DNA from: Propionivibrio limicola | GTDB lineage: Bacteria; Pseudomonadota; Gammaproteobacteria; Burkholderiales; Rhodocyclaceae | DNA: 64,000 nucleotides | NCBI RefSeq assembly: GCF_009469695.1 | Contig: NZ_SSSR01000004.1 | Span: forward strand, 62,001 to 126,000 | Direction: 5' to 3' | Part shown: piece by piece, positions 47,005 through 49,916 of the stretch | Layout of the letters: each line of letters begins with the position of its first letter | Numbering within the stretch: position 1 is the stretch's first letter | Notes under the pieces: model-generated | What the model saw: only the letters and a program-made list of their open reading frames with translations | The model's database searches: none | What the model was told of the DNA's origin: nothing | Translations under genes and position numbers: made by a program

Positions 47005-47760
47005 TCAACTCATGTGCATGCCACCGTTGATCGAAAGATCGGCGCCGGTCATGTAAGCGGCGGCGTCCGAGACGAGATAGGCGACAAGCGCGGCGATTTC
47101 GTCCGGCGAGCCAAGGCGCCCGACCGGAATCTGCGGCAACACCTTCGAGGTCATGATTTCGGTGGGAATAACCGACGTCATCGGCGTCTCGATATAGCCC
47201 GGCGACACCGTATTCACCGTCACGCCATAACGTGCCACCTCCAACGCCAGCGCTTTCGTAAAACCGTGCATCCCCGCCTTGGCCGCCGCGTAGTTGGTTT
47301 GCCCGAACGCGCCTTTTTGCGCATTGACCGAGGAAACGTTGATCACCCTCCCCCACTTGCGCTCGACCATACCGTCAATGACTTGCCGGGTCATGTTGAA
47401 AACCGACCCCAGATTGGTGTCGATGACCGCATCCCAATCGGCGCGGGTCATGCGCCGGAAGGTCATGTCACGCGTAATGCCGGCGTTGTTGACCAGCACA
47501 TCGACCGGCCCAACCTCGCGTTCAACGGTTTCTACGCACGCCCGACAAGAATCGTAGTCAGCCACATCGCACGGGATGGCGAAACCCGTGAAGCCTGCCC
47601 CGCCACCCATCTTCTCCCGCATAAAGTCCTGCCAGGCGGAAACCTTCGCATTGCCCGGCGTATGCGTCGCGACAACCTTGAAACCGAGCATCGCCAGCTG
47701 CCCACACACAGCCTGACCGATTCCGCCCATTCCTCCAGTGACCAGCGCTACCTTCTGCAT
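47005..47760 (-). CDS. phaB: Acetoacetyl-CoA reductase PhaB
   Basis: A 251-residue short-chain dehydrogenase that reduces acetoacetyl-CoA to (R)-3-hydroxybutyryl-CoA with NADPH, supplying polyhydroxyalkanoate synthesis. Cofactor loop TGGMGGIG (residues 8-15), NNAGITRD, and the catalytic Ser/Tyr/Lys in NVSSVNAQKGAFGQTNYAAAK region. PhaB-type features are RKWGRVINVSSVN, the C-terminal SPGYIETPM and the final SINGGMHM. No phaA or phaC is in the window. Confidence 0.92.
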   Translation of the reverse strand: MQKVALVTGGMGGIGQAVCGQLAMLGFKVVATHTPGNAKVSAWQDFMREKMGGGAGFTGFAIPCDVADYDSCRACVETVEREVGPVDVLVNNAGITRDMTFRRMTRADWDAVIDTNLGSVFNMTRQVIDGMVERKWGRVINVSSVNAQKGAFGQTNYAAAKAGMHGFTKALALEVARYGVTVNTVSPGYIETPMTSVIPTEIMTSKVLPQIPVGRLGSPDEIAALVAYLVSDAAAYMTGADLSINGGMHMS

Positions 47761-47841: not shown

Positions 47842-47913
47842 TCACTTTTCCTTGCGCAACGGGCATTTTTTGCACTGCGGCGTTTTCTTGCAGCATTTCT
47901 TGCTTTTGCTCAT
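47842..47913 (-). CDS. 23-residue Cys/Lys-rich peptide
   Basis: A tiny gene of 23 codons plus stop with a near-ideal ribosome-binding site (AGGAG six bases before the ATG). It begins 30 bases after the DUF2325 gene on the same strand. The peptide has four Cys and ten Lys. A vicinal Cys-Cys pair occurs near the start (KKCCKK) and a C-x-x-C (CKKC) follows it, then a short basic tail. The pattern suggests metal or Fe-S binding or nucleic acid contact. I recall similar short Lys/Cys-rich products beside DUF2325 genes but know no function. Confidence 0.65.
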   Translation of the reverse strand: MSKSKKCCKKTPQCKKCPLRKEK

Positions 47914-47943
47914 GACGATCTCCTTCACGAAACCAAAGGCCAT

Positions 47944-49302
47944 TCAGGGAGACTCGGGCGGCGCGGACGGCTCCGCCCGAATTTCCATTTTCCCGGCCTG
48001 ACTGACAACGCGCCCGAAGCTGGAAAGCCCGGTGTTTTTAACAAACATGCAGGGTTTACCGGTTCGTTTGCACTGTTCTTTCACCCGCCAATAGGCGTTA
48101 TGACTGATGCAGCCGACTTGGCAAATCACAATATCGGCGGCCGCCAAGGCGCCGTCGATGCGATGCAAATTTTCCTCCCGCCCTCCGTCGTGATGCATAA
48201 ACCGGCCACCATTGCCTTCGACGACTTCGCGGTAGGAGTTGATGGCACCGGAACGCCCGCCGACACAAAGGACACATTTCCCGGAAAGCGTTTCCGCCTC
48301 ACCGTCGATCCGCATCAGCCCGTCGGCTGGCGGGGCGGGCCAATCCTCAGTTCCGACACCTTCACTTTCCTGCGTCAGCACTTCGATCGTTTCTTCGGCA
48401 TATTTTGCGAATTGGCGCAGCCGAACCACTTCCAGCTCCAGTTCCTTCTCCCGCAGACGCAGCGCATCGAGACGGGCTTCGGCATCAAGCAAGCGCTGGG
48501 CGAGTCGCTGGCGCTCTTCCAGGAAGGGAATCTCGCGACGCAAAACCGCCATTTCGTTATTGAGCCGCTCATTGACAGCACCACGGGCCACAACATCGGC
48601 TTTCAGATCTGTCACCTGCAGCCTGAGTTCGAGAATCACGCGAGCCTCTTCGGTGCGCTGACGGCCGCTTTTCTCACGCAACGACTCATTTTCCTGCCGC
48701 AATTCCGCGCACTTCTGTTTCAGAGCCTGTATCGCATGATGGTCGGCGCGCGCCCCAGCCCCGACCTGGTGCTGCAGCATATGGATATCGGCATGCACAT
48801 CCTGTTCCAGGACGGCGTCGCACGCGGGATGCGTGCACACGGCCCAGAGCACGCCCGGAACTTCAATGTTGTCGCGCGATGCTTCACGCCACGCCAGCCT
48901 CAATTCACTCGCTGTTTTGAAGGCGGAAAACTTCTTGATGATCAGGGCGTTGCGGCGATCCAGAATCCTGTTCATCTTTTCCGACAACGGGCAGCGCTCG
49001 CTGCATACACCAACCGCGATGGTATGCCAAACGTAATCGGTTGTTGTCGTAGGATATTGGAGCTGTTTGCCAATGATCTGGCGCAGTTCCGCCACATCGA
49101 AACACACGCCGACAACCGGGCAGTGATATTTCTCCGATAACTCCCAGAGCTTCCGCCGGCGTTGGGATGCGGAGCGGACAACCGGAGCAGGCGGCTCGGT
49201 GACGGACGGCGGCGAAAAAATCCCCATCCATTGGCGCTCACTGAGTTTATCCCCCGCCAATGGCGGGACGGCCAATGCATTGAAACCACTGTTTGCTGAC
49301 AT
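47944..49302 (-). CDS. DUF2325 domain protein with Cys-rich N-terminal domain
   Basis: A 452-residue protein. The N-terminal part (about 55-170) has several Cys/His pairs (YHCPVVGVCFD, GVCSERCPLSEKMNR, WAVCTHPACDA). A long coiled coil (about 185-315) follows, then a C-terminal DUF2325 domain (about 340-440). That domain has KCVLCVGGRSGAINSYREVV, FMHHDGGREENL and ADIVICQVGCISHNAYW. DUF2325 has a Rossmann-like look and unknown function. It is the middle gene of a three-gene unit behind Fur-box-like repeats. An iron-linked role is inferred from that context only. Confidence 0.8.
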   Translation of the reverse strand: MSANSGFNALAVPPLAGDKLSERQWMGIFSPPSVTEPPAPVVRSASQRRRKLWELSEKYHCPVVGVCFDVAELRQIIGKQLQYPTTTTDYVWHTIAVGVCSERCPLSEKMNRILDRRNALIIKKFSAFKTASELRLAWREASRDNIEVPGVLWAVCTHPACDAVLEQDVHADIHMLQHQVGAGARADHHAIQALKQKCAELRQENESLREKSGRQRTEEARVILELRLQVTDLKADVVARGAVNERLNNEMAVLRREIPFLEERQRLAQRLLDAEARLDALRLREKELELEVVRLRQFAKYAEETIEVLTQESEGVGTEDWPAPPADGLMRIDGEAETLSGKCVLCVGGRSGAINSYREVVEGNGGRFMHHDGGREENLHRIDGALAAADIVICQVGCISHNAYWRVKEQCKRTGKPCMFVKNTGLSSFGRVVSQAGKMEIRAEPSAPPESP

Positions 49303-49319
49303 TCCTTACCTCCGCAAGC

Positions 49320-49775
49320 TTAGTCGTTCAGCGGCGCGCGCCGGTCGGCGAGGTTAGCCAATTCGGCGGCCAATTGATCGCGCTCGGCAGCAATTCGACT
49401 GCACTCCGCGTGCGCATCATGCAAGTTCTTTTCCAGCGTCCATACCTGACAGGCTGTGTTGGCGAGCCTTTCGTTGTCTTCACTCAACAGCATCAACCGA
49501 CGGCCCATCTCGACCATGGCAACACCAGATTCCAGTCTTTGGATTCGCTCACGATAAACATGGTTCAGTGATTCGAGACGGGATACATCGCCCATTAGCC
49601 GCGAAATGCGTTTCGTGCTTTCCAGCGCACCCCGATGCAATCGCCGCCGACAGTCGCGCAATGCTTCGACGAGAACCTGAACCTGTTCCGATGCCACGTC
49701 CTGCCTCACGGCGGGGGCAAAGCTCAGTTCACACACATCGTCGACGCAACCTTTCGTTTCGACGGGGATTAGCAT
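49320..49775 (-). CDS. Hypothetical coiled-coil protein, first gene of the DUF2325 operon
   Basis: A 151-residue soluble protein of unknown family. After a short N-terminal segment (residues 1-25, two Cys) almost the whole chain is predicted helical with heptad-like patterns (LVEALRDCRRRLHRGALEST; IAAERDQLAAELANLADRR). It has an AGGAGAAG-type ribosome-binding site and ends 17 bases before the DUF2325 start. The DUF2325 protein also has a long coiled coil, so the two could form a complex (inference). Confidence 0.65.
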   Translation of the reverse strand: MLIPVETKGCVDDVCELSFAPAVRQDVASEQVQVLVEALRDCRRRLHRGALESTKRISRLMGDVSRLESLNHVYRERIQRLESGVAMVEMGRRLMLLSEDNERLANTACQVWTLEKNLHDAHAECSRIAAERDQLAAELANLADRRAPLND

Positions 49776-49853
49776 GATGTCTTCTCCTTGCAGGTTATGG
49801 AACGCCGCAGTGCATCGGCAATTACGGAGCCATGATCGAAGCTCGCACCGCGC

Positions 49854-49872
49854 TATTGCGAACCATTCTCAC
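49854..49872 (-). promoter_or_regulatory. Fur-box-like site, proximal
   Basis: TATTGCGAACCATTCTCAC. It resembles the proteobacterial Fur-box variant with TGCGA and TTCTCA arms, and lies about 80-97 bases before the first gene of the DUF2325 operon. It pairs with a second copy 44 bases further upstream. Fur binding is inferred. Confidence 0.6.
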
Positions 49873-49897
49873 ATAGAGGGCAGGAAACGGTCAATCC

Positions 49898-49916
49898 TAT
49901 TGCGACACATTCTCAT
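49898..49916 (-). promoter_or_regulatory. Fur-box-like site, distal
   Basis: TATTGCGACACATTCTCAT, 16 of 19 positions identical to the proximal copy. Two copies in one intergenic region argue for a real operator rather than chance. Confidence 0.6.

Follow-up and report, generated by a model that had tools for sequence, protein, structure and literature searches.

In a 64,000-nucleotide stretch of the Propionivibrio limicola genome (contig NZ_SSSR01000004.1, positions 62,001 to 126,000; hereafter the window), three minus-strand genes encode a coiled-coil protein (gene 1), a long protein with a DUF2325 domain and a 23-amino-acid peptide. Together they probably constitute an iron-starvation operon, repressed by Fur, that encodes an iron- or heme-binding regulator or adaptor of uptake. 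Judged from sequence comparisons, Fur control of the operon is highly probable; an iron or heme role of the DUF2325 protein is likely, and sensing as such is less so. The genes and the elements in front of them are listed below.

49320-49775, minus strand: gene 1, an open reading frame (ORF) for a 151-amino-acid coiled-coil protein, homologue of the MLAPLKDR... gene of relatives
47944-49302, minus strand: gene for the long-form DUF2325 protein, 452 amino acids, with a PF10087 match
47842-47913, minus strand: ORF for the 23-amino-acid Cys/Lys peptide MSKSKKCCKKTPQCKKCPLRKEK, with CC and CxxC-Pro
49865-49894, minus strand: promoter-like TTGACC-18-GAGAAT with an extended -10 element (TG before the -10)
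49857-49871, strand not assigned: Fur-box-like site 1, TGCGAACCATTCTCA, two mismatches to TGAGAATNATTCTCA, overlapping the -10 element
49901-49915, strand not assigned: Fur-box-like site 2, TGCGACACATTCTCA, three mismatches to TGAGAATNATTCTCA, immediately upstream of the -35 element

An earlier note on this DNA had described three co-directional minus-strand genes, and recomputed coordinates agreed with it: gene 1 and the DUF2325 gene are 17 bases apart, and 30 bases separate the latter from the peptide gene. The two 19-base repeats in front of them were also present as described (49853-49871 and 49897-49915, 44 base pairs (bp) apart), with an identity of 17/19 rather than the 16/19 given there. 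An identity of at least 16/19 never arose when the 185-base region was dinucleotide-shuffled 300 times. The promoter-like site is situated between the two boxes, with TTGACC at 49894, an 18-base spacer, and GAGAAT ending at 49865; two such sites were found in the region, compared with 0.8 ± 0.8 in shuffles, which is weak evidence when taken alone.

The genome of the organism (3.1 Mb) contains 50 sites with three or fewer mismatches to TGAGAATNATTCTCA, versus 12 for the reversed control, and just six sites with two or fewer, box 1 being among these six. Random placement of the 50 sites would on average yield 0.04 pairs no more than 50 bp apart. Apart from the two boxes of the window, 16 of the 50 sites were inspected for their surroundings, with gene names assigned by eye. 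Of the five other sites with at most two mismatches, three adjoin iron-uptake genes (FbpA-like, FbpC-like and barrel/FeoB-type), and two (C22:309967 and C52:70465) have no recognised iron-uptake gene nearby. Two proteins of this genome match the FUR family (PF01475; best expectation value (E) 3.5e-46). Elsewhere in it, at L148:15173-18287, a FeoB-type gene identified by eye has in front of it a box-like site and a beta-barrel gene (PF13557); a barrel gene, also PF13557, adjoins the DUF2325 operon in the sister genome G023.

To survey related loci, a profile search with alignment A1 was used; it detected at least 513 related stretches in genome contigs, and the best 80 of these were analysed. 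The titles of all but one of the relatives (Azonexus, Dechloromonas, Rhodoferax, Janthinobacterium, Duganella, Undibacterium, Lautropia and others) are those of what we take to be betaproteobacteria. Box counts cover 77 of the 80 loci, L100, L115 and L123 having no ORF by the rule used; the 956,063 bases searched are the total for all 80 loci, not for the 77. In the 77 loci, 91 sites with at most two mismatches to TGA[GT]AATNATT[AC]TCA were observed versus none for the reversed control, and 173 versus 11 when three mismatches were allowed. Conservation of the boxes in relatives had been proposed as a check, and the boxes do concentrate upstream of the DUF2325 gene: their density was 0.84 per kb between -1000 and -500 and 0.50 per kb between -500 and 0, with a lesser peak of 0.29 per kb at +1000 to +1500 and 0-0.12 per kb in the remaining bins. 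A box with at most two mismatches was present between -1600 and +30 in 45 of the 77 loci. In comparison sequence, there was one box in 64 kb (the window), none in 20 kb of window flanks, none in 58 kb around unrelated weak peptide matches, and 11 in 46 kb of loci with short DUF2325 genes. The pair is also kept, a strong box being accompanied by a second one (four mismatches or fewer) 41-43 bp away in 15/77 loci; inspection by eye of two-box loci revealed TTTACA and TATGAT between or under the paired boxes. In G023 (locus L031) the box sites are 45 bp apart, in a region shared with a divergent gene. This recurring two-box promoter is the best evidence that the boxes of the window are likely to be functional.

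A set of 24 loci was surveyed, five of which had no box and were not inspected; in 14 of the 24 the operon begins with an ORF for a tiny, apparently membrane-spanning peptide of about 24-25 amino acids, for example MNSLIVHVSIAALLLGTALLTAFPT. It is encoded directly downstream of the Fur-box promoter in L066, L067, L069-L073, L076, L079-L082, L084 and L088, and was not found in the window.

Genes neighbouring the long DUF2325 genes of the 80 loci were grouped by blastp clusters, and the receptor and TonB clusters were named by eye. HemP was observed in 44 loci, TonB in 23, a single receptor cluster in 22, and ExbB in 19; 60 of the 80 loci have one or more of these four near the gene. Of the HemP ORFs on the same strand, 19 are at most 500 bp upstream of the DUF2325 gene and 12 at most about 100 bp downstream. 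Family checks, done on single examples, gave E values of 1.4e-17 for HemP, 4.9e-33 for MotA_ExbB, 6.5e-24 for TonB_C, 2.3e-18 for Ferritin and 5.2e-10 for Fer2_BFD; the receptor cluster was named by eye alone. Directly behind the DUF2325 gene, a ferritin-like gene is found in L037 and a Bfd gene in L044. Upstream of DUF2325 or gene 1, two families of small cysteine-containing proteins recur, one of 87 amino acids in 23/80 loci (L079:1636-1842 and 22 more) and one of 110 amino acids in 15/80 (L119:5487-5819 and 14 more). One example of each was scanned and had no Pfam match, and the two match each other weakly in hhalign (probability 21%).

HemP-family proteins have been reported as activators or post-transcriptional regulators of heme receptors, quite distinct mechanisms have been proposed for this small regulator, and ChuP binds heme (PMC9131926); Burkholderia hemP is reported to have a Fur box and to be under iron control (PMC7377471). 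HemP, HmuP and ChuP resemble the system described here in being Fur-controlled and tied to TonB receptors, and HemP is a neighbour of the long DUF2325 gene in 44/80 loci; they differ in size and family (PF10636, 37 positions). Fur-repressed TonB-ExbB-ExbD/receptor operons of betaproteobacteria share the box type and the neighbourhood, whereas the window operon itself contains no transporter gene.

Short, stand-alone DUF2325 genes of the bacterial order also have Fur-box-like sites. Of 14 such loci, ten have a box with at most three mismatches in the 90 bp before the start, and eight have one with at most two; in the ten (L017, L019-L025, L028 and L029) the box lies 29-81 bp upstream. Published work on cj1384c, a short DUF2325 gene of Campylobacter jejuni, reports it to be highly iron-responsive, to carry a Fur repression motif and to be up-regulated in a fur mutant (PMC3815106, PMC4491227). 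Its product, described as a 104-residue protein with seven cysteines and of unknown function (PMC9426514), resembles the window protein in its DUF2325 domain, its richness in cysteine and the upstream Fur motif, but is too short to contain the Cys/His N-terminal domain and the coiled coil. The same gene raises a different explanation, namely that the window protein is a cysteine-rich oxidative-stress protein which serves peroxide or redox defence rather than uptake, and is co-regulated with iron because the two stresses are coupled. According to PMC9426514, cj1384c is also regulated by PerR, adjoins katA/cj1386, and showed the strongest induction of all genes (352-fold) in C. jejuni killed by light. 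One relative of the window peptide (L165) is likewise located by a catalase gene, as judged by eye, and the DUF2325 protein has many conserved cysteines. The 60 loci in which the long form lies near HemP, TonB, ExbB or the receptor cluster argue against this explanation, as does the fact that inspection by eye of the 40 most frequent neighbour clusters revealed no recognisable peroxide-defence gene. We consider peroxide defence unlikely.

The long DUF2325 protein consists of three parts.

48751-49179, minus strand: N-terminal all-helical Cys/His domain, residues 42-184 (alignment A6 and model)
48367-48816, minus strand: long helices or coiled coil, residues 163-312 (structure model)
47998-48276, minus strand: DUF2325 domain with an alpha/beta fold, residues 343-435 (PF10087 and structure model)

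PF10087 matched residues 343-435 with 86.8 bits, the Pfam gathering cut-off being 33.6. In the full-length model an all-helical N-terminal domain is followed by two long helices and then by an alpha/beta domain (predicted local distance difference test (pLDDT) 85.6, predicted template modelling score (pTM) 0.48); the N-terminal domain modelled separately gave a pLDDT of 90.1 and a pTM of 0.84. This domain carries the motifs CPVVGVC, H93, TH158 and DIHMxxH174-178. Conservation was assessed in alignment A5 (73 sequences, five of the 77 ORFs having been excluded for length) and, for the N-terminal domain, in A6 (66 sequences including that of the window, seven of the 73 in A5 having been excluded). 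C61, H93, H158, H174 and H178 in the N-terminal part, and C346, C394, C398, H401, C411 and C418 in the C-terminal part, are invariant across the 73 proteins; C61, H93, H158, H174, H178, H401 and C411 are still invariant in the more diverse 15 sequences of A1. The Cys-Pro dipeptide is conserved, with C61 invariant and P62 present in at least 90% of the 73 sequences. Cys-Pro is a heme regulatory motif. No Pfam family was matched by the N-terminal domain of the window protein, and a comparison with viral models yielded no fold matches at E ≤ 0.001. Kinship with the PocR sensory domain was considered and rejected: the match occurred in 4/66 members, with a best E of 0.086, and was judged to be due to chance. 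The domain may have a new fold, one that binds metal or heme.

The best 60 of 230 sequence matches of the DUF2325 protein in the PDB all fall on the long-helix/coiled-coil part. For the C-terminal domain the best fold matches were to generic Rossmann, PTS-IIB and receiver folds, and all had an E above 0.001. Such folds would suit proteins that are controlled by iron and act outside iron metabolism, for example in nucleic-acid or nucleotide signalling via a Rossmann-like DUF2325 domain; given the conserved cysteine and histidine sets and the iron and heme neighbours, this appears very improbable. G023 has a further long DUF2325 gene (L031:9554-11521), which belongs to a different class with a cysteine cluster before the domain; it is divergent from the operon, and the common region between them holds several box-like sites.

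Gene 1 was found to be a recurring partner of DUF2325, more regular than the peptide. A homologue of the MLAPLKDR... gene is present upstream of DUF2325 in 21 of the 80 loci, within 150 bp in 20 of these, and gene 1 aligned with it in a single comparison at 35% identity over 133 amino acids (E 9e-21). The possibility that gene 1 encodes an unrelated coiled coil was therefore rejected, as the alignment covers most of its length. Gene 1 also aligned (50% over 64 amino acids) with the internal coiled coil of a long DUF2325 protein from a different class, which suggests that the gene 1 product and the DUF2325 protein may have a coiled coil in common.

The earlier note had proposed both iron control and a metal or iron-sulfur (Fe-S) role. 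Iron control by Fur is strongly supported, since the boxes and their concentration upstream of DUF2325, the spacing of the box pair, the HemP, TonB, ExbB and receptor neighbours, and the Fur repression reported in C. jejuni all agree; handling of metal, heme or Fe-S clusters by the DUF2325 protein is what we infer from its conserved cysteines and histidines. We propose the following mechanism. When iron is ample, Fur bound to the two boxes would clamp the promoter and keep it shut, and iron shortage would open it. The main product, presumably a soluble three-part protein, would most likely bind iron or heme through its helical Cys/His domain, pair with the coiled-coil product of gene 1 through its own long coiled coil, and use the alpha/beta DUF2325 domain for output. 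It would most likely sense or buffer intracellular iron or heme, adjusting TonB/HemP-type uptake in starvation, and the 23-residue peptide would be a metal-binding accessory captured here by the operon.

Several observations weigh against this proposal. Among the 11 inspected sites with three mismatches in the P. limicola genome, one adjoins a recognised iron-related gene (a TonB receptor). No box with at most two mismatches is present between -1600 and +30 in 32 of the 77 loci, and none of the four iron neighbours in 20 of the 80. The analysed loci are the best-scoring of at least 513 and are mutually related, and because all 15 two-box loci are of the Rhodocyclaceae type, the two-box spacing may be a single inherited event or design. 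HemP was not found in the P. limicola genome (97.94% complete); the neighbour argument is therefore not directly applicable to the window, whose operon looks like a reduced version of the loci of relatives. The model of the N-terminal domain had no fold match in the PDB at E ≤ 0.001 (best E 2.1), the best PDB match of its sequence profile had an E of 0.67, and no solved structure or family that was matched points to a ligand. Finally, among 98 sources scanned, several of them loci that end shortly after the DUF2325 gene, only the window and L031 have the peptide gene next to DUF2325.

This last result does not agree with the fixed three-gene unit described in the earlier note: the peptide is otherwise encoded away from DUF2325, a pattern search for it across the 80 DUF2325 loci gave nothing convincing, and we rejected it as a fixed member of the operon. 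Its conservation, which had also been proposed as a check, did extend to the bacterial family, with relatives in 19 of 199 same-family genomes and 8 of 68 genera, P. limicola included. Class-wide, at E ≤ 0.01, it was detected in 3/369 genomes, again including its own, and the other two matches were partial. From these comparisons it is taken to belong to a family-restricted peptide family. Codon differences in seven scored pairs of relatives were synonymous in 24 cases and non-synonymous in 11 (some sequences were used in two pairs, and the window-L031 pair was not among the seven). Since synonymous changes prevail and relatives occur in 8/68 genera, a chance ORF was rejected. An alternative upstream start would lengthen the peptide to 33 amino acids; the 23-residue start is favoured by a ribosome-binding site and by relatives, which start at or within two codons of it.

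The peptide genes of other genomes of the family have varied neighbours, which were named by eye and include ferritin-like, catalase, flavodoxin, tsaD, ubiA/ubiD and ExbB-like genes. Relatives adjoining ferritin-like (L188), catalase (L165), flavodoxin and tsaD genes are found in L188, L165, L169, L162, L168 and L172. Most peptide genes lack their own box: with duplicates removed, a box with at most three mismatches lies within 400 bp upstream in 3 of 19 distinct loci (L189, L191 and L195). Of the 18 other peptide genomes, 15 have DUF2325 and three, all of one genus, lack it; among 58 genomes of the same family, with the peptide genomes G023 and G048 counted in, 18 have it. The co-occurrence is significant by genome (Fisher p 1.2e-4) and gives p 0.09 by genus; the link between the peptide and DUF2325 may therefore reflect shared descent. 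The locus sets L031-L047 and L065-L144 overlap in some genomes, and counts were not summed across them.

The CC-x5-CxxCP layout, packed into 23 amino acids, has a CP that is invariant in 10 peptides. The peptide matched no Pfam or NCBIfam family, Fer2_BFD included, a search with weak power for a 23-residue query. It resembles Bfd and other small cysteine-containing iron proteins in being small and containing cysteine, and its relative in L188 lies by a ferritin-like gene (by eye), as DUF2325 lies by bfd in L044; its motif layout and the absence of a Fer2_BFD match set it apart. A CxxC tail is present in 11 of the 14 short DUF2325 proteins, eight of these tails being CxxCP as in the peptide (by eye). 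Together with the CxxC of the peptide, these tails would be compatible with an Fe-S or iron-sparing assembly factor, with the cysteine set and the CxxCP peptide serving to carry iron or Fe-S clusters, or to deliver them, in starvation. Neither the peptide nor the N-terminal domain of the window protein gave a family match in the searches above, and no Isc or Suf gene was recognised by eye among the 40 neighbour clusters; we regard such a factor as rather unlikely, more so than peroxide defence.

The tail of one short DUF2325 protein, QCASCPLKSA (L027), is similar to QCKKCPLRKEK of the peptide, and this likeness is one element of a bolder version of the iron or heme proposal. The long DUF2325 protein would be a new kind of intracellular heme or iron sensor, its helical domain binding heme or iron via HCPxxGxC, H93, H158-x-x-C161 and HxxxH; the signal would pass along the coiled coil common to gene 1 to the DUF2325 domain and so tune HemP/TonB uptake, and the peptide would correspond to the CxxCP tail of short DUF2325 proteins, acting in trans as a detached metal-ligand module. 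That the sensor and the detached module should both hold is a doubtful prospect, which we put about level with the Fe-S factor.

The remaining features of the locus lie on either side of the operon. Upstream, the strong terminator that had been claimed is present, slightly beyond position 49916, at which the region originally described ends.

49957-49940, minus strand: intrinsic terminator of the upstream minus-strand transcript, seven G-C pairs and a T tail

Downstream, a gene for acetoacetyl-CoA reductase (TIGR01829, 351 bits) is located at 47005-47760, 81 bases past the peptide gene and in the same direction, with a promoter-like site between the two.

No description of the long betaproteobacterial DUF2325 form, and no role for its gene, was found in the accessible parts of the literature searched, subscription journals being mostly outside the search. 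The operon thus presents a seemingly Fur-controlled gene with at least 513 detected relatives and no role found in print. Its linkage to HemP would give a direct handle on the adjustment of heme and iron uptake in these bacteria, and the peptide family would provide a test case for very small metal proteins.

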